This document shows, in pieces, positions 16,871 through 29,730 of a DNA stretch of 64,000 bases. The DNA is taken from NCBI RefSeq assembly GCF_007035645.1, contig NZ_AP019632.1, positions 1,860,001 to 1,924,000 of the forward strand. Direction: 5' to 3'. The notes under the pieces are model-generated. The model did no database searches. It was not told the DNA's origin and saw only the letters and a list, made by a program, of their open reading frames with translations. The stretch is from Enterobacter asburiae. GTDB taxonomy: Bacteria > Pseudomonadota > Gammaproteobacteria > Enterobacterales > Enterobacteriaceae. Both the position numbers and the translations under genes were made by a program. Positions within the stretch are counted from its first letter, which is position 1; each line of letters begins with the position of its first letter.

Positions 16871-19411
16871 ATGCTCAACCGAATTACCGTTCAGCTCCCG
16901 GTGGAGGGGCTTCTGTTCTGGAAACTGACGGGCCGCGAGGCGATGTCCGAGTCGTTCGCGCTGACGCTGACCGTGCTCGGCACGGACGCGCGCATCGATC
17001 GCAGCAAGCTGCTGGGCCAGCCGGTCACGGTGACCATCCCGACGCAGAACCTGCTGACGTCCCGCTATGTTAACGGCAAGATTACCCGCGTGGCGGTCAG
17101 CGCCGTCGAGCTGACGGGCACCCGCTATGCGGTGTACCAGCTGACGGTTGAGCCGGACCTGTGGCCGATGAAGCGCGACCGTAACCTGCGTATCTTCCAG
17201 GGGCAGACGGTGCCGCAGATTGTGAAAACCCTGCTGGGCGAGCATCAGGTTAACGTTGAGGATAAGCTCACCGGCAGCTACCGGGTGTGGGATTACTGCG
17301 TGCAGTATCAGGAGTCGAGCCTGGACTTCATCAGCCGCCTGATGGAGCTGGAGGGGATTGCCTATCACTTCAGCCACGAGGCGGACAAACACACCCTGGT
17401 GCTCACCGACGCCGCCACGCAGCATCAGCCGTTCAGCGGCTATGAGGTCATTCCTTACCACCAGACGCCGTCCGGCGGCAGTACGGACGAAGAGGGCATC
17501 AGCCAGTGGGCGCTGGAGGACAGCGTGACGCCGGGGATTTACAGCCTCGACGACTATGACTTCCGCAAGCCGAACGCGTGGCTGTTCCAGGCCCAGCAGA
17601 ACCCGGCGTCGCCGAAGCCGGGCAGCATCGACGTGTACGACTGGCCGGGTCGCTTTGTGGACAAAGGCCACGGAGAGTTCTATGCCCGCATCCGTCAGGA
17701 ACGCTGGCAGGTGGAGCATCAGCAGATTCAGGCCACCGCCACGGCGGCGGGGATTGCGCCCGGGCACACCTTCACCTTAACCAACGCGCCGTTCTTCAGC
17801 GACAACGGCGAGTATCTGGTGACGGCGGCGGGTTACCACTTCGAAGAGAACCGCTACGCCAGCGGCGAGGGTGAAACCATTCACCGCACCGATTTCACGG
17901 TGATTCCGTCGACGGTGGTGTACCGTCCGGCGCAGACCACGGCGTGGCCGCGCACCTACGGACCGCAGACCGCGAAAGTGGTGGGGCCGAAGGGCGAGAG
18001 TATCTGGACGGACAAATACGGTCGCGTGAAGGTGAAGTTTCACTGGGACCGCCTGGCGAAAGGCGATGACACCAGCTCCTGCTGGGTGCGCGTGTCGAGC
18101 GCGTGGGCGGGCCAGGGCTACGGCGGGGTGCAGATCCCGCGCGTCGGCGACGAGGTGGTGGTGGACTTTATCAACGGCGATCCGGATCGTCCGATTATTA
18201 CCGGGCGCGTGTACAACGACGCGAGCATGCCGCCGTGGGCGCTGCCTGCCGCGGCGACGCAGATGGGCTTTATGAGCCGCACGAAAGACGGTTCAGTCGA
18301 CAATGCCAACGCCCTGCGGTTTGAGGATAAAGCGGGCGCAGAGCAGGTGTGGATCCAGGCCGAGCGCAACATGGACACCAGCGTTAAAAACGATGAAACG
18401 CACAGCGTCGGCGGGGAGCGCAGCCATTACGTGAAGAAAAATGAACTACATCGCGTGGAAGCGAACCAAACCCAGGCCGTGAAGGGCGGAACCGAGATCC
18501 TGACGGGGAAAGGCAAGCTGGATGCTGCGGTGGAAGAGTACGTTATTGCTTCCGGGACGAAGCTGCGGCTGGTCTCCGGTGAGAGCGCCATTGAGCTGAA
18601 CGCTAACGGCAAGATTAACCTGATCGGCAAAGAGTTTAACTTCTTCGTGGAAGGGGATGGGTATATCACCACGGGCGGTAAGCTGCATCTGAATACCTCT
18701 GGCACCAAGCCGGGCACAACGGCACCGGGATCGGGGCATAAAGGGGATATTGATGCGGCGGTGCAGGCGAAATTTACGCCGGGAAAGGAGAATAAGGCAG
18801 GTGCGGCTGCAAGCGCGCCTGCCGAAACCTCTAAAACTGCAACACCCCCATCATCAGGTGTGCCTTCAAGCGGATATGGCAAGGATGTAGATAGTCTTGT
18901 CGATAAATCACCGACCATGAAAAATGACATAGCTACGTTAAAGAAACGAGGCTGGACATTTGAAGAAGGTGAGGCAGGTAAGGGGACGTTTGCCAATCGT
19001 CAAAAGCGAGTTATTACCGTTGATAAAAACGAGCTCGGTAATCCGAATGCGGTTGTTCAGTCTTTGTCACATGAAAGTGGCCACGCTTTATATGAACCCA
19101 ACATTGATTTTTCTTCGCGCGACGCCTATCTCAACAGCACACTCAGTGATGAAGGCGCTGCAACGTTGAACAATATCCGGGTCCAGCGCGAAATCATAGC
19201 CAACAAGGGTGGGGATATCGGTATTGCGGGCAATCCGGCAAATCAGACACAATATAATCGTATTTATGATTCCCTCGAACGGGGGGCTATAAAGGAAAGT
19301 GAAGCGCGTACGCAGATAGGCCGTATCTTTGGCAAAGGCGAACAAACGTCTACCACAGGGCAATATTACGAAGATTATTATGGCGGTTGGTATGATAAAA
19401 ATTATCCATAG
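16871..19411 (+). CDS. vgrG: Evolved VgrG spike with C-terminal metallopeptidase domain
   Basis: VgrG trimers cap the Hcp tube and pierce the target. The 846-residue product has the VgrG core (gp27/gp5-like, about 1-640), including the gp5 needle region RVKVKFHWDRLAKGDDTS and the DUF2345-like part. An Ala/Pro linker near 640-670 follows, then an extra domain (about 680-846). The extension has H734-E-S-G-H738, an HExxH zinc site, and E761 in a DEGAATLNN context as the likely third ligand, so it resembles a gluzincin-type peptidase. GC content falls at about 18800, marking a foreign tip on a conserved core. Its substrate is unknown. The next gene overlaps its end. Confidence 0.92.
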   Translation: MLNRITVQLPVEGLLFWKLTGREAMSESFALTLTVLGTDARIDRSKLLGQPVTVTIPTQNLLTSRYVNGKITRVAVSAVELTGTRYAVYQLTVEPDLWPMKRDRNLRIFQGQTVPQIVKTLLGEHQVNVEDKLTGSYRVWDYCVQYQESSLDFISRLMELEGIAYHFSHEADKHTLVLTDAATQHQPFSGYEVIPYHQTPSGGSTDEEGISQWALEDSVTPGIYSLDDYDFRKPNAWLFQAQQNPASPKPGSIDVYDWPGRFVDKGHGEFYARIRQERWQVEHQQIQATATAAGIAPGHTFTLTNAPFFSDNGEYLVTAAGYHFEENRYASGEGETIHRTDFTVIPSTVVYRPAQTTAWPRTYGPQTAKVVGPKGESIWTDKYGRVKVKFHWDRLAKGDDTSSCWVRVSSAWAGQGYGGVQIPRVGDEVVVDFINGDPDRPIITGRVYNDASMPPWALPAAATQMGFMSRTKDGSVDNANALRFEDKAGAEQVWIQAERNMDTSVKNDETHSVGGERSHYVKKNELHRVEANQTQAVKGGTEILTGKGKLDAAVEEYVIASGTKLRLVSGESAIELNANGKINLIGKEFNFFVEGDGYITTGGKLHLNTSGTKPGTTAPGSGHKGDIDAAVQAKFTPGKENKAGAAASAPAETSKTATPPSSGVPSSGYGKDVDSLVDKSPTMKNDIATLKKRGWTFEEGEAGKGTFANRQKRVITVDKNELGNPNAVVQSLSHESGHALYEPNIDFSSRDAYLNSTLSDEGAATLNNIRVQREIIANKGGDIGIAGNPANQTQYNRIYDSLERGAIKESEARTQIGRIFGKGEQTSTTGQYYEDYYGGWYDKNYP

Positions 19412-21580: not shown

Positions 21581-24500
21581 ATGAGCGATAACAAGGCGGC
21601 CCGTAAGGGCGACGAGATTATTCACTCCAGCATTTTTGCTGACATCACCAGCATTGTGGCGGAGGGTGCCGCCTATGCGGTGATCGGCGCGGCGGTAGGC
21701 GCAGCTGCAACCGTAGCGGCGCCATTGCTGGGCGCAGGGGCGGCCGCAGCGGGCGTGGCGGCAATTGGATCCAGCTGTCTGTTAAGCGGAATTATCGGTG
21801 GCGTGCTGGCGAACGTCGCGGGGATCACCGACGATATCAGCAACGCCGCTGAGGGGTTAGGTAATGCGCTTTTCCCGCCGTCGCCTGCGGGTAAAATCAC
21901 TACCGGTTCCAGTAACGTTCTCACCAACGCAATCCCCGCCGCGCGCGCGGCAGGCACGCTGACGCCCGCCGATACACCGTCCCCCGAGCCGCAGTCGCCG
22001 GGCAGCTTTGCCGATTACGCGGGCATGCTGCTATCCGCCGCCGGTCAGTTTGGCAGCGAAATGTGGCAGCCGAGCGTGGCCTCTGCCGCCGCGGGAACCT
22101 CGCCGCTGGAAGAGGACAAGGTGGCGTGCGAAAAGCACTCCGGGCCGCAGTATCTGGCGGAAGGCTCTAAAAGCGTCTTCATCAACGGGCAGCCCGCGGT
22201 GCGTGCCAAAGATCGCACCACCTGCGAAGGCACCGTTTCCGACGACGTCTCCCCGAACGTGATCATCGGCGGGGACACGCTCACGGTTCGCGATATCAAA
22301 AGCGGTAAAACGCCGGGTCTGGCGCTGGGGATGATTGCACTCTCCCTGCTGCGCGGGCGTCCGGGTAAGATCCTGAAAAACATGCCCTGCGCGCTGGCGG
22401 CGGCCGGCGGCGGGATGCTGGCCGATATGGCGGTGAATGCCGTGTTTGGCTCCTCGCACCCGGTTCACGCCGCCACCGGCGTGAAGGTGCTGAATGACGA
22501 CGACGAGCTCGATTTCTCGCTGCCGGGGCGCTTTCCGCTTCGCTGGCAGCGCAGCTATAACAGCCTGACCACCCGGGAAGGGCTGTTCGGTCTGGGCTGG
22601 GCAACCACCTTTGACAGCTATCTGGCGCTGGAAGACAACAACGCCACCTGGTTCGACGAAACCGGGCGCGAGCTGAGCTTCGAGCTGCCGCCTGTCGACC
22701 GCGCGTTTTACAGCATCAGCGAAGGCATCATTATCCGCCGCAATGAGAGCGGCGACGTGGCGATTGCCGACGATGACGGCGCGGTGTGGCGTCTGTATAA
22801 ACCGACCCGGGCGAATCCATCTATCCTGCGTCTGGCCTCCCTCAGCGACGAATACGGCAACGCGCTGCTGACGGAGTGGGACGAGCACGGCAGGCTGGTC
22901 GGCCTTCACGACGAGCCGCGGGCGATAGACGTCACCCTGCGCTATGACGATGAACGTTTCCCGCAGCGTGTTACCGCTGCCAGCCATTTTGACGGCAGCC
23001 AGACATGGCCGCTGATGCAGTGGGGCTACGACGCGCGCGGCCAGCTGGCGAGCGCGACGGATGCCTCCGGCGTGGTGACGCGTGAGTACCGCTATAACGA
23101 GCACGGGCTGATGGTCTGGCACCGGATGCCGGGCGGTCTGGAGAGCGAATACCGCTGGAAAAAATTCGATCACTGGCGCGTGGTGGAAAACCGCACCAGC
23201 ACCGGCGACGGCTGCCGCTTTAGCTACGATTTAGCCGTCGGGCTGACGACCGTCGAGCACTACGACGGCCAGACGCGCCGCCACTACTGGAACGCGCAGA
23301 ATCTGATTGTCCGCTACGTTGACGAGCGCGGTGAAAACTGGCGCTACGAGTGGAACGAGAACGAGCTTCTGACGCGACGCATCGATCCGCTCGGCAATGC
23401 CGTTACCTTCGTCTACGACGAAATGGGCAACCGGGTTCAGGAGATCGACGCCGACGGCAATACCCGCACCACCGCCTGGCTGGAACACCGCGCGCTTCCT
23501 GCGGCCATTATTGAAGCCGACGGCAGCGCCACCCGGTTCTGGTACGACGAACATCACGGGCTTAAGCGCGTGGTGGACCCGATGGGGCAGACCACGCAGC
23601 TACGCCGGGACGAGTTCGGCCAGGTCGTTGAAGAGGTCGATGCCGCCGGAAACAGCCGCTACCAGGAGTACAACGAGGCCGGGCAGATTGTTCGTTCGAC
23701 GGACTGTTCCGGGCGTATTACCCTCTACCGCTACCATCCGCTGGGCTGGCTGCTGGCCGAGACTGGCGCCGACGGGGAAGAGACGCGATATCGCTACGAC
23801 GCCGCAGGGCGTCCGGTGCAGCTCGATCGCCCGGAAGGCTGGACGGAATCGCTCAAATGGAACGAACGCGGCCTGCCGGTGAAGCATGCGGGCGCCGACG
23901 GTAAAGAGAGTGAGTTCAGATATGATGCGGCAGGGCGATTAACCGCGACGCGTAATACCCAGGGTGAAGAGGTCCGTCGCCGCTGGGACAGCCGCGGGCG
24001 TCTGATTGCCCTGGAAAATGAAAACGGCGAAGCGTATCAGTTCCGCTGGGGCGCGGACTCGCTGCTGCTGGAAGAGGTGGGGCTCGATGGCGTAGCCTCG
24101 CAGTATCGCTATGACGCCTGCGGACGCACGATAGCACGCACGTTTGCCGCCGGTCATCCTGAGGCCATCACCCATGCCTTCGCCTGGAGCGCGAGCGGCC
24201 AGCTGGTCGCCCGCACCACGCCGGAGGGGCAGACACGCTATCACTACACGCCGTCCGGGCTGTTAAGCCGGATTGGGCTGCATCCTGCGCTTGCAGCCGA
24301 CGCGTGGACCACCGCGGCAGAGCAGGAGCTGGCCTTTGAGTATGACGCGCTTGGTCGCGTGACGCGCGAGGCGGGCGAGCACGGCGAGCTGGCGTGGGAG
24401 TATGACGCGCTGGGCAACCGCACCTCTATCACGCTTCCCGACGGCCGCGAGCTCAAGCAGTTTTACTACGGCAGCGGGCATCTGCTCAGCATTGCTCTCG

Positions 24501-25954
24501 ATAAGCTGTCGGTCTCCGACTTTACCCGCGACGAACTCCACCGGGAGACCAGCCGCACTCAGGGGCTGCTGACCACCCGCAGCGAATACGATCGTCTTGG
24601 CCGACTGCATCGCCGGGACGTCTTTACCGGCAATGCGCAGCGCCCGTCGCCGCGCCGCTGGTCCCGCCGCTGGGATTACGACTACCGAAATAACCTGGTG
24701 CGGGAAGAGCGGGACGATAACCCGTTCAGCTGGTACCGCTGGCAGTACGACAGCGCCGGGCGCCTGCTCGTTCAGGACGGCACGCTGCCCGGACAGGAGC
24801 AGTGGCGCTGGGACGCTGCCGGTAACCCGCTCGAAGGATCCGCTGAGAAGGTCACGCACAACCGCCTGACGCAGCTGAACGGCATTCGCTGGCGCTATGA
24901 CATCCACGGCCGCACCGTGGAAAAAGAGAACGGCCAGACCCGCTGGCACTACCGCTACGACGGTGAGCATCGCCTGACGGAGGTCATCAGCCAGCCGCGG
25001 GACCGCAACAAACCGCAGACGCAGGTCAGCTTCCGCTACGATCCGCTCGGGCGACGCATCAGCAAAACGCGACGCCAGATGCTGGGCGGACAGCCAACCG
25101 GCAAGCCGGTCACAACCCGGTTTGTCTGGGAAGGGTTCCGCCTGCTGCAGGAGGTACACGGGGATGTGCCGCTCACCTACGTTTACAGCGATCAGGACAG
25201 CTACGACCCGCTGGCGCGTATTGACGGCGTGGATGCTCCGGAGATCTTCTGGTTCCACTGCCAGCCCAACGGCACGCCGGAGCGGATGACGGATATCGAA
25301 GGGCAGGTGCGCTGGGAAGGGGTGAACAGCGCCTGGGGCAAGCTGCTGCGGGAAAGCGAGACGCAGGTATCAGGATATTCTCAGAACCTGCGCATGCAGG
25401 GGCAATACCTGGACCGTGAGACAGGGCTGCACTACAATCTGTTCCGGTATTATGACCCGGACTGCGGAAGGTTTACGCAGCAGGACCCGATAGGGCTGGC
25501 GGGAGGGATAAACCTTTACCAGTATGCGCCGAATGCGCTGGGGTGGGGGGATCCTATAGGTTTAACCGCTTGCAAAAATGGGAGTCCTAAACGGTCAGTG
25601 AGAAACATGTCTTTTGCTGACTGGATTAAAAGAAAGGCAAAAGGTGGGAATAACACCCATGTTTATTTAGGATATAGAGACGGTAAACCTGTCTATGTAG
25701 GTATCAGTAAGGATGTTGATATCCGTGCTGTGCAGCATGGTGAAAGGTTCGACAAATTAGTTAGAATTACTGAAGAACCGTTAAATCGTGGTCATGCGCG
25801 GAGCATAGAACAAGCAGTTATTCACAACAACCCTCATTTTGAGAACTCTATAAATAGCATAAGTCCGACAAGGAAGTTATACTCAGATGCTGTTTCGTGG
25901 GGCGAAAATTGGCTTAAAAATAATGGGATTAATGTAAAATGGCCGACAGATTAA
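21581..25954 (+). CDS. rhs: PAAR/Rhs polymorphic toxin with GIY-YIG-like nuclease tip
   Basis: A 1457-residue Rhs effector. In order: transmembrane helices at about 25-85 (EagR-binding region), a PAAR spike domain near 170-240, and the Rhs/YD-repeat cage from about 295. The cage ends with the self-cleavage-type motif DPIGL at 1324-1328. The variable tip (about 1330-1457, markedly lower GC) shows GIY-YIG-like features: VYLGY at 1361-1365, VYVGI at 1371-1375, R1382 and E1410 in SIEQAV, followed by an Asn-rich stretch. The predicted activity is DNA cleavage in a target cell. The adjacent gene overlaps its end and is the likely immunity gene. Confidence 0.93.
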   Translation: MSDNKAARKGDEIIHSSIFADITSIVAEGAAYAVIGAAVGAAATVAAPLLGAGAAAAGVAAIGSSCLLSGIIGGVLANVAGITDDISNAAEGLGNALFPPSPAGKITTGSSNVLTNAIPAARAAGTLTPADTPSPEPQSPGSFADYAGMLLSAAGQFGSEMWQPSVASAAAGTSPLEEDKVACEKHSGPQYLAEGSKSVFINGQPAVRAKDRTTCEGTVSDDVSPNVIIGGDTLTVRDIKSGKTPGLALGMIALSLLRGRPGKILKNMPCALAAAGGGMLADMAVNAVFGSSHPVHAATGVKVLNDDDELDFSLPGRFPLRWQRSYNSLTTREGLFGLGWATTFDSYLALEDNNATWFDETGRELSFELPPVDRAFYSISEGIIIRRNESGDVAIADDDGAVWRLYKPTRANPSILRLASLSDEYGNALLTEWDEHGRLVGLHDEPRAIDVTLRYDDERFPQRVTAASHFDGSQTWPLMQWGYDARGQLASATDASGVVTREYRYNEHGLMVWHRMPGGLESEYRWKKFDHWRVVENRTSTGDGCRFSYDLAVGLTTVEHYDGQTRRHYWNAQNLIVRYVDERGENWRYEWNENELLTRRIDPLGNAVTFVYDEMGNRVQEIDADGNTRTTAWLEHRALPAAIIEADGSATRFWYDEHHGLKRVVDPMGQTTQLRRDEFGQVVEEVDAAGNSRYQEYNEAGQIVRSTDCSGRITLYRYHPLGWLLAETGADGEETRYRYDAAGRPVQLDRPEGWTESLKWNERGLPVKHAGADGKESEFRYDAAGRLTATRNTQGEEVRRRWDSRGRLIALENENGEAYQFRWGADSLLLEEVGLDGVASQYRYDACGRTIARTFAAGHPEAITHAFAWSASGQLVARTTPEGQTRYHYTPSGLLSRIGLHPALAADAWTTAAEQELAFEYDALGRVTREAGEHGELAWEYDALGNRTSITLPDGRELKQFYYGSGHLLSIALDKLSVSDFTRDELHRETSRTQGLLTTRSEYDRLGRLHRRDVFTGNAQRPSPRRWSRRWDYDYRNNLVREERDDNPFSWYRWQYDSAGRLLVQDGTLPGQEQWRWDAAGNPLEGSAEKVTHNRLTQLNGIRWRYDIHGRTVEKENGQTRWHYRYDGEHRLTEVISQPRDRNKPQTQVSFRYDPLGRRISKTRRQMLGGQPTGKPVTTRFVWEGFRLLQEVHGDVPLTYVYSDQDSYDPLARIDGVDAPEIFWFHCQPNGTPERMTDIEGQVRWEGVNSAWGKLLRESETQVSGYSQNLRMQGQYLDRETGLHYNLFRYYDPDCGRFTQQDPIGLAGGINLYQYAPNALGWGDPIGLTACKNGSPKRSVRNMSFADWIKRKAKGGNNTHVYLGYRDGKPVYVGISKDVDIRAVQHGERFDKLVRITEEPLNRGHARSIEQAVIHNNPHFENSINSISPTRKLYSDAVSWGENWLKNNGINVKWPTD

Positions 25955-26409
25955 CAGTAGTGTCAGGAAATGAAAGGCAAAAAAAATGGCCTAAACAAGG
26001 TGATTTTTTTTACTTTCAGTTAAATGATGGTCGATTAGGCTATGGTATGGTCTCCTTGGGTAAAATAGATGTCGGTCCATTCAAAAATGCTATAGTTATA
26101 TATATATATGACTATTTTACATCTTCGCTTCAAGAAGATGCTGTATTGGCAAAAGATAATTTGCTATTGCCGCCAATCATTACTGATAATTCATGCTGGA
26201 AAAACGGTTACTTCGTAACATTTAAAACTATCGAAACGAGCGAAGTGGATATCTTACCACAACATTATTTTAAAAACCCTGTCAGAAATAAAATATATGA
26301 TGAGCATGGCGTAACAATTGACTCACCAACTGAGAATATACCAATCGGTGAAGAGTCGATTCAATTCTATAAAAGCGTTATAAAATCTATAGAAAGCTTT
26401 GTTAACTAA
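25939..26409 (+). CDS. Imm26-like immunity protein for the Rhs tip
   Basis: A 156-residue cytoplasmic protein with the Imm26-type opening KWPKQGDFFYFQLNDGRLGYGMV (KxGDxFxxxLxDGRxGYG pattern). No signal peptide, as expected for protection against a nuclease. It overlaps the rhs stop by 16 bases, so toxin and antidote are coupled. It shares the low GC of the rhs tip. Family assignment is from pattern recollection. Confidence 0.75.
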   Translation: MADRLTVVSGNERQKKWPKQGDFFYFQLNDGRLGYGMVSLGKIDVGPFKNAIVIYIYDYFTSSLQEDAVLAKDNLLLPPIITDNSCWKNGYFVTFKTIETSEVDILPQHYFKNPVRNKIYDEHGVTIDSPTENIPIGEESIQFYKSVIKSIESFVN

Positions 26410-26416
26410 TAGACTA

Positions 26417-26445
26417 GGCCGGGGAGATATTTCCGGCCTTTTACT
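26417..26445 (+). terminator. Terminator after the Rhs immunity gene
   Basis: GGCCGG and CCGGCC pair (26417-26422 with 26433-26438), followed by TTTTACTT. The CCGGGGA...CCGG core resembles the sequence just before the ychF-facing terminator at 28572, consistent with duplicated module ends. Confidence 0.7.
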
Positions 26446-26451
26446 TACGGC

Positions 26452-26895
26452 ATGAGAAAAATCATAAGCATACAAACAGATACTGCCACATTAGTTATTT
26501 ATGATTTGATGTCATTAAAGCATAGAATTAATGATGATGCAGATTGGTGGAGTCTTCCAGAAGATGAAGTTGAAGAAATAAATAAAGGGAATCTATTATT
26601 TCTCAATCTTGGAGATGATGGTGCCTATAAAGTTCATATTAAAAATGATGTTGATGAATATACCGGGTCACTATTTTTAAGCGTACCTTCTGGAAAGGTT
26701 TTCATTGGGGCGGGAGAAGATGTCACAGGCGGAGATCTTGAGCCTGATGACTCAGATGCTATTTCAGGTGAGTTCATTTATTTAGACCCTGGTAGTTACG
26801 AAGTTAAATATAAAAAGCAAGGTTCAGATGTTCTGGTTTCCTTTACAAAAGCAACGATTACTGGAAACTCATTAGAAGAGGGAGTTTATCTCTGA
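26452..26895 (+). CDS. Orphan immunity-like protein (DUF6386-like)
   Basis: A 147-residue acidic, signal-less protein (MRKIISIQTDTATLVIYDLMSLKHR, then WWSLPEDEVEEINKGNLLFLNLG). It resembles the DUF6386 group often found near polymorphic toxins, though I hold that loosely. No toxin tip precedes it and it has its own terminator, so it appears to be an orphan left by an earlier Rhs module. The low GC matches the other tip and immunity genes. Confidence 0.6.
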   Translation: MRKIISIQTDTATLVIYDLMSLKHRINDDADWWSLPEDEVEEINKGNLLFLNLGDDGAYKVHIKNDVDEYTGSLFLSVPSGKVFIGAGEDVTGGDLEPDDSDAISGEFIYLDPGSYEVKYKKQGSDVLVSFTKATITGNSLEEGVYL

Positions 26896-26898
26896 ATG

Positions 26899-26927
26899 CA
26901 AATCCACGCCCTGGCGTGGATTTTTTC
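26899..26927. terminator. Terminator copy 1 (duplicate of the ychF-facing terminator)
   Basis: AAATCCACGCC pairs with GGCGTGGATTT, followed by TTTTC. It is nearly the same as the hairpin at 28595-28618 beside ychF, and the sequence after it resembles the 3' end of ychF. Confidence 0.8.
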
Positions 26928-26936
26928 ATCCAAAAA

Positions 26937-27040
26937 AATGTTAAACAATTAATTCAGCACGTAGCCATTTATAACAATAGTCTTTTTTCCTTTTGCAGGT
27001 GTCTTGCTTATTTTTTTTTCGCGCCTTGCTTACCGTTACC
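26937..27040 (-). pseudogene. Decayed copy of the 3' end of ychF
   Basis: Over about 100 bases this matches the end of the intact ychF (28640-28740) with scattered substitutions and small indels. Shared anchors include GTTAAACAA, GCCAT, TAGTCTTT and TTTCGCGCCTTGCT, in the same order and orientation and with the same terminator alongside. It encodes nothing now. It marks an old ychF boundary left behind when Rhs modules were inserted. Confidence 0.75.
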
Positions 27041-27110
27041 CTTAATAAGCGGTCGTTATACTCGCAACGAACAACTCCACCCTGAGAATAGTCCCCCGTA
27101 GCTGCTTACC

Positions 27111-27316
27111 ACCCGCCGCGAGTACTACCACCTTGGTCGACTGCATCGTCGGGACTTCTTTACCGGCAATGCCCGTCGTCGCCGCGCCGCTGGGATTACG
27201 ACTACCGCAACCTGGTAAGGGAAGAGCGGGACGGTTGCCTGCGCGAAGGATCTGCAGAGAAGGTCACGTACAACCGCCTGACGGAAGTCATCAGACAGCC
27301 GCGGGTTCGCAACAAT
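27111..27316 (+). pseudogene. Decayed rhs core fragment
   Basis: Matches the intact rhs core at about 24570-24995 (TTGGTCGACTGCATCG, TTTACCGGCAATGC, GGGATTACGACTACCG, GAGAAGGTCACG), but is shortened by internal deletions and broken by stops. One deletion lies exactly between two CGCCTGACG repeats that are 108 bases apart in the intact gene (24863 and 24971). It has no start, cage or PAAR part, so it is a displaced core end like those that precede orphan toxin tips. Confidence 0.8.
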
Positions 27317-27422
27317 CAAGTTACTTAAATCCGCATCAGGCAGTCTATATGCTAATATAGGTTCTACTCAACGAACCCGTAGAGCTTAGCCTGGAGATTA
27401 GTATGCAACGTTGAAACAATAG

Positions 27423-27518
27423 TTTCATATCAGTTACAAAGAAATGATTGATGCATGTGTTCTAAAACAGCAGGGAAGAAAATCGCTTAGGGATTCGTAT
27501 AAATATTTTGACCAATAG
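27423..27518 (+). pseudogene. Possible C-terminal tail of a lost Rhs toxin
   Basis: Thirty-one open codons (FHISYKEMIDACVLKQQGRK...) end at TAG 27516-27518, 63 bases before a SUKH immunity gene. The position between an rhs core remnant and an immunity gene is where a toxin tip should be. There is a stop immediately upstream and no family match, so the call is by context. The remaining bases between 27317 and 27581 hold nothing else I can support. Confidence 0.35.
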
Positions 27519-27581
27519 AAATAGTTTAATAGTAATAATGTTTATTTTATATATGACTTATTAGCTTAAAGGCAAGTTGGT

Positions 27582-27938
27582 ATGGAAAAACAAAATTTAA
27601 TTGATCAGCTAAATGAAATTGAAAAGCTTATGCACATTTCTTTACCATCTGAATATAAATGCTTTATAATTGAGAACGTCAAGTACGCTGACTTTTATGA
27701 AATTCAACGAGCAAATGGTGACCAGCTTTATGTTTTCAATTGTTTTGATTTGCTTGAAAGAAATAATGCATATGCAATCCAAGAGGTTGAGCCTGACCTT
27801 TTGTTGATTGGTCAAGATGGTGATCTTGGGTATTTTTTGAATCTGTGCAAGGGTACTGATGATATTTATTCTTTAGATCTTGGAGCATTAGGAAGCCTGG
27901 AAATTGATAAAGAAAGTAATAGTATATTTATGTTATAG
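27582..27938 (+). CDS. SMI1/KNR4 (SUKH) family immunity protein
   Basis: A 118-residue SUKH-fold protein. The family pattern is visible: an N-terminal helix (LIDQLNEIEKLMHISLPSEYKCFII), a strand-turn segment, then LLIGQDGDLGYFLNLCKG. SUKH proteins are common cytoplasmic antidotes to nuclease-type polymorphic toxins. It follows the remnants of an rhs core and a possible toxin tail, so it probably protected against that lost toxin. Low GC. Confidence 0.8.
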   Translation: MEKQNLIDQLNEIEKLMHISLPSEYKCFIIENVKYADFYEIQRANGDQLYVFNCFDLLERNNAYAIQEVEPDLLLIGQDGDLGYFLNLCKGTDDIYSLDLGALGSLEIDKESNSIFML

Positions 27939-27976
27939 TTTTGCTTTTATTAAACGCCTAGTTCAGTATTTTGGAA

Positions 27977-28003
27977 AACCCACGCCAAATCGTGCATTTT
28001 TTT
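27977..28003 (+). terminator. Degenerate terminator copy 2
   Basis: CCCACGCCAAATCGTGCA followed by seven T resembles the ychF-facing terminator (CCACGCCAAAGCGTGGA) with a weakened stem. It lies 39 bases after the SUKH stop and is probably the decayed terminator of that module. Confidence 0.5.
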
Positions 28004-28076
28004 AAAAAATAGTTCAAATATAGATTATTTTTTCAGAACTGCCAGATACAACAAAAATAAAATACGATGTAATATT

Positions 28077-28559
28077 ATGAGTGATAAGAGCATGCAAAAA
28101 GTAGATCTACTAATTTCACATAGTCAAATAGTGTTACGATCCCGAGACTATGACGAAAAGCTGAGTCAGTGGGGAAAAGGCAATGTTTCTCAAGGTGCTG
28201 TTCTACACAAGGATTATGTTATATTCGATCCATTACCAGAGGACGCGTTTGGAGCAAACGTCAATATCAAAATAGAGAATAGTTTTAAAATGGATGAAAA
28301 TGCTCAGCGCTGTATTGTTGTGCCATTTTTCATTACGGATAAAGATAAGCTTCAAATCGCTTCTGCAACTGAGAAATTCGATTTAAATATAGATGTGAAC
28401 GATGAAGTTTATTCACTCTTTTATGAGATTTGTGAAGGAGATGAAATTTATTATAATTTCACTCTTGTGCCGGCAAAAGAAGCTATTGCTGCTAAGTTTT
28501 TGCTAGATGACCCTTGGGGAGGAATAAAAGATTATCCTCTCAAAGAAGGGATTTTTTAA
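28077..28559 (+). CDS. ComJ-like protein, probable orphan nuclease immunity
   Basis: A 160-residue signal-less protein resembling the ComJ family, whose Bacillus founder inhibits the competence nuclease NucA. Visible features are DLLISHSQIVLRSRDYD at the N terminus, a GAVLHKDYVIFDPL strand region and CIVVPFFI. ATG 28092 is an in-frame alternative. Similar genes occur as immunity genes beside polymorphic nucleases, but no nuclease precedes it here. It is the last gene before ychF and shares that gene's terminator. Confidence 0.6.
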   Translation: MSDKSMQKVDLLISHSQIVLRSRDYDEKLSQWGKGNVSQGAVLHKDYVIFDPLPEDAFGANVNIKIENSFKMDENAQRCIVVPFFITDKDKLQIASATEKFDLNIDVNDEVYSLFYEICEGDEIYYNFTLVPAKEAIAAKFLLDDPWGGIKDYPLKEGIF

Positions 28560-28592
28560 ATTTAGTATTAACCGGGGAATTTATCTCGGAAT

Positions 28593-28622
28593 AAAAATCC
28601 ACGCCAAAGCGTGGATTTTTTT
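28593..28622. terminator. Bidirectional terminator between the ComJ-like gene and ychF
   Basis: AAATCCACGC pairs with GCGTGGATTT (28595-28604 with 28609-28618) around CAAA. A T run follows on the plus strand and an A run precedes it, so it can serve both converging genes. Related copies are at 26899 and 27977. Confidence 0.85.
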
Positions 28623-28635
28623 CATTCAAAACAAC

Positions 28636-29730
28636 TCAAACGTTAAACAAGAAGTTCATCACATCGCCATCTTTAACGATGTAGTCTTTCCCTTCCGCAC
28701 GCATCTTGCCTGCTTCTTTCGCGCCTTGCTCACCCTTGTAGGTGATGAAGTCTTCAAACGCGATAGTCTGCGCACGAATAAAGCCTTTCTCGAAGTCGGT
28801 GTGGATCTTACCGGCCGCCTGAGGAGCTGTCGCACCCACAGGGATCGTCCACGCACGCACTTCTTTCACGCCAGCGGTGAAGTAGGTCTGAAGGTTCAGC
28901 AGCTCATAGCCCGCGCGGATCACGCGGTTCAGGCCCGGCTCTTCCAGACCCAGCTCGGCCATGAACTCTTCACGGTCGGCGTCGTCCAGCTCAGCGATGT
29001 CGGATTCAACTGCAGCGCAAACCGCCACAACCACAGAACCTTCAGCCGCCGCGATTTCACGCACTTTGTCGAGGTACGGGTTGTTCTCAAAACCGTCTTC
29101 GTTAACGTTGGCGATGTACATGGTTGGCTTCAGGGTCAGGAAGCTCAGGTATTTGATCGCCGCCTTGTCTTCTTCAGTCAGGTTTTTCAGCGCGCGCAGC
29201 ATGCCCGCGTTTTCAAGCTGTGGCAGACATTTTTCCAGCGCAGCCAGTTCCGCTTTCGCGTCCTTGTCGCCGCCTTTGGCTTTCTTCTGCACGCGGTGAA
29301 TAGCGCGTTCGCAGGTGTCGAGGTCAGAGAGCGCCAGCTCGGTGTTGATGACGTCGATGTCGTCAGCCGGATCCACTTTGTTGTTAACGTGGATGATGTT
29401 GTCGTTCTCGAAGCAGCGCACAACGTGGCCGATCGCTTCGGTTTCACGAATGTTGGTCAGGAACTGGTTACCCAGGCCTTCACCTTTGGACGCGCCTTTT
29501 ACCAGGCCCGCGATGTCCACGAATTCCATGGTGGTTGGCAGAATGCGCTGCGGCTTAACGATTTCCGCGAGCTGGTCCAGACGCGGGTCCGGCATTGGCA
29601 CAACGCCGGTGTTAGGTTCGATGGTACAGAACGGGAAGTTCGCCGCTTCGATACCCGCTTTGGTAAGCGCGTTAAACAGGGTGGATTTGCCCACGTTTGG
29701 CAGACCGACGATACCGCATTTGAATCCCAT
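28636..29730 (-). CDS. ychF: Redox-regulated ATPase YchF (Obg-like, OLA1 family)
   Basis: A 364-residue ribosome-binding P-loop ATPase of the Obg family that prefers ATP. G1 motif GLPNVGKST lies near the N terminus, [14 protein letters not shown] provides the G3 region, and the C-terminal TGS domain ends FLFNV. Sequence and length match the E. coli protein. Its 3' end faces the Rhs graveyard, where a decayed copy of that end lies about 1.7 kb away. pth follows on the same strand upstream. Confidence 0.97.

Follow-up and report, generated by a model that had tools for sequence, protein, structure and literature searches.

A probable stack of displaced Rhs toxin-immunity modules beside ychF in Enterobacter asburiae carries ychF/rhs scars shared among species

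Behind the full-length Rhs effector gene of a type VI secretion system (T6SS) block in Enterobacter asburiae, a tandem array of immunity genes runs up to the housekeeping gene ychF, and decayed copies of the ychF 3′ end stand between those genes. We analysed the 64,000-nt stretch that carries this array (the window) against a genus set of 61 genomes, its own included. At the level of sequence, the locus documents duplication of the ychF flank, fusion of the copy to the rhs core at short microhomology, sharing of the resulting scars across species, loss of toxins and retention of immunity genes. We think it rather likely that the array is a stack of displaced Rhs modules whose joints were founded at microhomology, whose modules spread by RecA-type recombination and whose immunity genes are kept under purifying selection. 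An earlier note, made from the window alone, had described an archive of orphan immunity genes with a duplicated ychF end and had credited homologous flanks with its assembly; the archive is supported, and the part played by homology is revised below.

Duplicated ychF ends in the immunity array

From rhs to ychF, the window holds an Imm26, a DUF6386, a SUKH-1 and a ComJ gene (Table 1), and these four are the only open reading frames (ORFs) above 75 aa in 25939-28636. The three tandem immunity-type genes that the earlier note placed beyond the working module are the last three, all of them open. Between the first two of these orphans, 26899-27037 aligns with the ychF terminator and 3′ end (about 28595-28737) with a score of 97, against a mean of 18 and a maximum of 29 in 1000 dinucleotide shuffles. 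Leaving out the terminator lowers the score to 65, a value reached in 0 of 1000 shuffles (maximum 29), and a search of the own genome recovers the same pair with E=8e-21. This piece, scar 1, repeats the order and orientation of the intact copy at a spacing of 1695-1700 nt, and the copy claimed earlier is confirmed. Two other origins of scar 1 are rejected: a chance alignment, because no shuffle reaches its score, and a remnant of another gene, because the comparable and longer pieces in relatives, up to ~430 bp, are ychF; the earlier note had named a different gene in related strains as what would overturn its reading.

A shorter remnant, scar 2, lies between SUKH-1 and ComJ. With its terminator part alone it reaches a score of 44, the best shuffle giving 30, and it is 84% identical to the scar behind SUKH in one relative, G013 (relatives are cited by such handles). 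The scar 1 terminator still folds though its ychF coding part has decayed; the scar 2 hairpin is broken. The window layers each consist of a toxin end, an immunity gene and a ychF end, stacked on one another, with intact ychF closing the lowest. Two layers depart from this: DUF6386 is without a detected toxin end, no remnant of its module's tip being found in 26300-26451, and Imm26 is followed by a hairpin of its own in place of a ychF end. Toxins have been lost and immunity genes kept, the toxin ends measuring 243 and 64 nt as against intact immunity ORFs. The decayed rhs core, the toxin 3′ remnant and the second ychF remnant had escaped the earlier note, as had the cognate rhs-linked copies in other species described below.

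Table 1. Features of the Rhs-ychF region, in window coordinates
Feature	Coordinates	Strand	Evidence
Full-length Rhs effector closing the T6SS block; PAAR region towards the N terminus, followed by Rhs core and variable tip	21581..25954	+	ORF 1457 aa; PAAR_motif 2e-14 in first 330 aa
Variable tip at the Rhs effector C terminus, presumed toxin domain	25559..25954	+	shared in part with G019, together with Imm26
Imm26-family gene adjoining the tip, presumed cognate immunity	25939..26409	+	Pfam Imm26 4e-10; archived copy in G019
Terminator-like hairpin 3′ of Imm26, not ychF-derived	26416..26439	+	hairpin/terminator scan
Orphan immunity gene 1, DUF6386	26452..26895	+	Pfam 5e-60; directly behind full-length rhs in G037
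psi-ychF scar 1: ychF terminator and ~100 nt of decayed 3′ end	26896..27037	+	alignment, own-genome search; hairpin -14.2 kcal/mol, z -4.1
rhs core remnant joined to scar 1	27059..27315	+	three pieces with deletions between; 74-90% to 24523-25011; shared 8-nt deletion
Decayed 3′ part of SUKH-linked toxin tip	27320..27562	+	243 nt, 88.5% identical to tip end in G013; all three frames contain stops
Orphan immunity gene 2, SUKH-1 (SMI1_KNR4)	27582..27938	+	Pfam 5e-6, just above Pfam cut-off; directly behind full-length rhs in G013
psi-ychF scar 2: short ychF terminator and 3′ end remnant, hairpin broken	27946..28022	+	alignment
Last 64-66 nt of ComJ-linked toxin tip	28012..28075	+	80% to G018; overlaps scar 2 end by alignment
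Orphan immunity gene 3, ComJ	28077..28559	+	Pfam 7e-19; directly behind full-length rhs in G018 and G034
Intact ychF terminator hairpin	28593..28620	.	hairpin scan and folding
Intact ychF, source of the duplicated 3′ end	28636..29730	-	ORF 364 aa; matched in genus

Scar classes and breakpoints across the genus

The ychF-proximal region was compared in 56 of the 61 genus genomes, a sample of one genome per species from which G046, G047, G054, G056 and G058 were left out; G020 and G040 were excluded from ORF clustering. A full-length rhs lies in the stretch in 24 of the 56 genomes (on the opposite strand in G020), and at 13 of these 24 loci decayed ychF pieces (psi-ychF) pass the survey threshold, with a further 57-nt piece in G040. 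Of 32 psi-ychF piece rows, 28 are followed on their inner side by a decayed rhs piece (psi-rhs) no more than 130 nt away; these correspond to 26 places in 12 genomes, two scar copies that carry an internal deletion each accounting for two rows. The core pieces in the arrays are 70-99% identical to their own full-length core and so belong to the same rhs type; truncated core fragments with other tips stand behind the full-length rhs, decayed in the window and numerous in relatives.

The joints fall into classes. Class 1 joins ~400 nt of ychF coding sequence to rhs core nt ~3247 (G026, G027, G029 and G034). Class 2 joins ~90-100 nt of ychF to a core piece starting at nt 2903-2984 and is found in the window, G008, G013, G016, G019, G024 (twice), G029, G034 and G037; the script's class-2 bin is coarse and also takes in class-1 pieces with internal deletions and other joints, so class-2 scars were counted by breakpoint (n=10). 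In class 3, ~65 nt of ychF meets rhs at ~2973 or 3073 (G013, G016, G024 and G034), and a fourth class is common to G029 and G039. The ychF coding repeat thus ranges from ~65 to 400 nt. Each of the three main breakpoints lies in 4-6 nt common to ychF and rhs (CCGC(T), TGCTCA and CCGCAC), the class-1 overlap being 4 or 5 nt according to the ychF allele; random breakpoint pairs share at least 5 nt in 0.65% and at least 6 nt in 0.19% of 200,000 draws. Exact ychF-type terminator motifs at 23 loci number 30 between rhs core and array end, most of them the terminator of intact ychF itself, and 0 upstream in the same stretches.

The scar reaches beyond the lineage of the window, both as a continuous match in other species and through a deletion in its rhs part common to other species. 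The stretch from DUF6386 through the scar into rhs is continuous in five other species (matching 664 to 884-889 bases of an 889-base query in three and 724-761 in two); G026 carries the same DUF6386-scar stretch below the class-survey threshold. A block that runs from DUF6386 through the scar to SUKH is common to the window and G024 at 83% over 709 nt.

Cognate copies at the front position

Genes that are orphans in the window sit next to a full-length rhs elsewhere. In G018, rhs is followed directly by ComJ and then ychF, and the tip matches the NucA/NucB DNase family (E=4e-8); in G013, SUKH follows directly, then ComJ, and the tip matches Tox-SHH (4e-39); in G037, DUF6386 follows directly, with SUKH further on, and the tip gives an Ntox15 match of 0.0046, below the Pfam cut-off. 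In G019 a cluster c19 gene comes first, then Imm26 and a broken DUF6386. Given these cognate, rhs-adjacent copies across species, every layer of the window can be found at the front in a living species. Of the seven genomes with at least two of these five genes, six agree in archive order. Strains with a single module before ychF, which the earlier note had proposed to look for, do exist: G009, G018 and G032 have less than 1 kb between rhs core and ychF.

DUF6386 is a Pfam family of unknown function; its place behind the G037 rhs with the below-cut-off Ntox15 tip (L076:5498-5941) suggests that it may be a family of Rhs immunity proteins. The G018 locus (L038:17913-18760) combines a T6SS Rhs tip of the NucA/NucB DNase type with a following gene of the ComJ competence nuclease-inhibitor family as presumed immunity. 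In G037, ~40 kb that include fimbrial genes separate the array (L076, L054) from ychF, yet the array still contains ychF scars, as if it had once abutted ychF. In G008, a large Peptidase_S6 ORF of the IgA1 protease type lies between scar and ychF (L048:1638-5519).

Selection on remnants and immunity genes

Differences are spread over codon positions 1/2/3 as 9/11/7 in the toxin remnant and 9/5/8 in psi-ychF; the corresponding counts for the immunity genes, each against its relatives, are 4/4/12 for ComJ, 13/4/26 for SUKH and 10/8/24 for DUF6386. Third positions account for 62 of 105 differences in the immunity genes versus 15 of 49 in the remnants (Fisher p=0.0017). For the three orphan genes of the window, the ratio of nonsynonymous to synonymous substitution rates (dN/dS) against other copies is 0.11-0.31, over pairs that include branches on which the gene was possibly cognate. 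Evenly decaying toxin and flank remnants beside constrained immunity genes, all within one locus, amount to evidence from sequence that retired immunity genes are probably kept for their usefulness.

Founding, spread and alternatives

We posit that the array arose in three steps. At founding, as the junctions suggest, the ychF 3′ end would have been fused, over 4-6 nt of microhomology, with a mid-core position of rhs. The simplest route would be a tandem duplication in place that spanned rhs core to ychF; one-sided illegitimate insertion of donor DNA would be another. The outcome would be a full-length rhs in front and the older toxin-immunity module behind a psi-ychF/psi-rhs scar. Because the inner scar end enters the mid rhs core at short microhomology, the founding join would not have been homologous; it looks microhomology-mediated and old. 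During spread, to which the sharing of scars points, the front pair would be exchanged with DNA of other Enterobacter by ordinary RecA recombination. Flanked by the rhs core on the left and by psi-ychF/psi-rhs on the right, the pair has homology on both sides, so one scar can stand beside many modules. In the last step the remnants decay and the immunity genes stay open, presumably because they give resistance to relatives that still fire those toxins. The earlier note's claim that module insertion duplicated the flank holds for the duplication and fails for a founding join by homology; its preference for homologous flanks over a transposase holds in that no transposase is seen among the ORFs of the window array, and applies, for homology, to the later spread. 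Homologous recombination probably best explains that spread and the reshuffling of modules. For the founding join, the microhomology fits homology-facilitated illegitimate recombination and tandem duplication equally, and the data accommodate tandem duplication, linear insertion and a circle alike.

In a tree of psi-ychF and intact ychF, six class-1 copies, drawn from four species, make up a single clade (support 100/97), which groups with the intact ychF of G021, G026, G027 and G029 (95/82); a grouping of the G034 scar with the ychF of G034 itself is rejected by the approximately unbiased test (AU p=0.015). An 8-nt deletion in the rhs part marks 7 of the 10 class-2 scars by script and 0 of 24 full-length rhs genes, and is seen by eye in two more, the first G024 copy (4 nt by script) and the G034 copy (none by script). 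A pattern for the deletion allele occurs in 6 of the 61 genus genomes, the more decayed window copy and the G034 copy not being among them, and a control pattern in 0. Across 392 genomes of the family, it has one match, G024, itself of the genus, and none in the 387 genomes of other genera; a chimeric class-1 query against the same 392, with at most two candidates scored per genome, gave no match to both halves among the matches listed. The neighbours of the scars change: DUF6386, clusters c13, c8 and c2 and, in G013, ComJ lie upstream of class-2 scars, class-1 scars follow at least three clusters (c1, c2 and c4), and the modules behind scars of one class differ as well. We read the scars as what appear to be old joints re-used with changing modules. 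More tentatively, they may be integrase-free cassette joints, each scar serving as the right-hand homology arm and the ychF 3′ end as an attachment sequence used throughout the genus. On this view a few scars, each with a single origin, would travel through the genus with modules that keep changing, comparable to an integron but driven by RecA.

Several observations weigh against the three-step account. An unswapped founding duplication, with one module repeated on either side of a scar, is absent from the junction table; with one genome per species, exchange is read from sharing, no exchange event having been seen; and G016 breaks the archive order, with ComJ before DUF6386. The class-2 scar of G013 is without the 8-nt deletion, which makes a second origin possible, and psi-ychF of the window is too short for a tree. 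Changes private to the window copies of the immunity genes number 17/6/22 at positions 1/2/3, a weaker bias in the same direction, and for ComJ alone 3/0/2, with no bias.

Among the alternatives, the one that survives best, unlikely as we judge it, is that whole arrays with their scars were swapped as blocks by homologous recombination in vgrG/rhs and ychF, leaving the scars as passive heirlooms and the modules differing mainly by deletion inside long arrays. Long many-scar arrays do occur in G027 and G029, in near-identical blocks (psi-ychF 99.7% over 392 columns), and the block shared by the window and G024 fits as well; yet scars of one class differ in their immediate neighbours on both sides, which would require exchange or deletion right at the scars. 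Less probable still are recurrent independent joins at ychF/rhs microhomology hot spots, each scar being local to its lineage, the alternative closest to the earlier note. Microhomology at each main breakpoint and the G013 scar speak for such joins; the single class-1 clade, the rejected pairing of the G034 copy with its own ychF, and a deletion that scars share but none of the 24 full-length rhs genes has speak against them, so that formation of each scar afresh is disfavoured. Site-specific integration into the ychF 3′ end by an integrase element is close to refuted and very improbable: displaced gene ends repeated on either side of inserted DNA do look to us like attL/attR, but Pfam scans of the four window genes and of 24 of the 46 array ORF clusters found no integrase family, the repeat length varies, and rhs core borders the inner side in 28 of 32 rows. 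A transposase or integrase as the main cause is likewise rejected on the window ORFs and the Pfam scans, which in relatives (24 of 46 non-rhs ORF clusters) found one insertion sequence transposase with a DDE domain, at G016 L062:12874-13839. G016, the sole holder of a transposase among the scanned clusters, is also the genome with the discordant archive order.

Compared with the microhomology-founded, RecA-spread stack that we favour, none of these alternatives is as probable.

Other features of the locus

The T6SS block includes VgrG and a DcrB-domain gene, together with two genes that we take to encode ClpV and a kinase, and ends in the full-length Rhs effector. The C-terminal extension of VgrG (18431-19411) shows an HExxH-like motif by eye, Pfam giving only a below-cut-off Peptidase_M32 match (E=0.019). 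Searches of Pfam and of PDB sequences found no match for the active Rhs tip, which by eye has what we take to be a likeness to GIY-YIG nucleases. NCBIfam named none of the four immunity proteins, and the PDB sequence search gave no match for ComJ and only E=0.056 or worse for DUF6386. The best 120 of 152 ComJ relatives span many genera, and the same DUF6386 gene occurs in E. hormaechei subsp. hoffmannii DSM 14563 (NZ_CP017186.1) and E. cloacae DSM 26481 (NZ_CP056117.1). A promoter scan stayed at chance level (11 found, 9.9 expected).

Comparison with known systems

ComJ and NucA are a nuclease-inhibitor pair of Bacillus, and the pairing recurs in G018, where a ComJ-family gene follows a NucA/NucB-type tip; unlike the Bacillus pair, the setting is a T6SS Rhs tip with a presumed immunity gene and not competence.

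The phenomenon as a whole is of a known kind and represents a variant, documented here in sharp detail, of Rhs C-terminal displacement and of orphan immunity arrays. A literature search of open-licence papers, conducted mostly by listing, found no report of ychF remnants at rhs loci; within the literature searched, the readable, shared ychF/rhs joint and its re-use were not found in print. In the parts of Jackson et al. 2009 (PMC2935791) that concern Rhs C-terminal displacement, a full-length rhs is followed by same-type core fragments with displaced tips, exchange in the core is homologous, no integrase is known, and circles are proposed whose first making is left open. The array described here shares this layout and differs in that its joint is a piece of housekeeping ychF fused to the rhs core at microhomology and found across species. 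In the relevant passages of Kirchberger et al. 2017 (PMC5361080), the T6SS orphan immunity arrays of Vibrio cholerae have likewise lost old effectors and retained immunity genes that are pushed back; homology-facilitated illegitimate recombination is proposed and one flank-like remnant mentioned. Genus and effector type are different there, and the Enterobacter joints have been mapped at single-base level, sorted into classes and followed from species to species. Salmonella Typhimurium likewise has, downstream of its main rhs, an orphan tip that retains part of the core. For this case the passages concerned in Koskiniemi et al. 2014 (PMC3967940) propose locus duplication followed by recombination, with the old immunity gene kept; unlike the present array, that case is a single orphan studied by laboratory evolution, and those passages mention no flank scar.

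The non-homologous side of each insertion has hitherto been a matter of hypothesis, be it homology-facilitated illegitimate recombination or circles of unclear origin. The scars described here are unusually clear, and several Enterobacter species have them; as these joints are readable, few in origin and spread across species, the gain of modules can be ordered and the founding step told apart from the spreading step.

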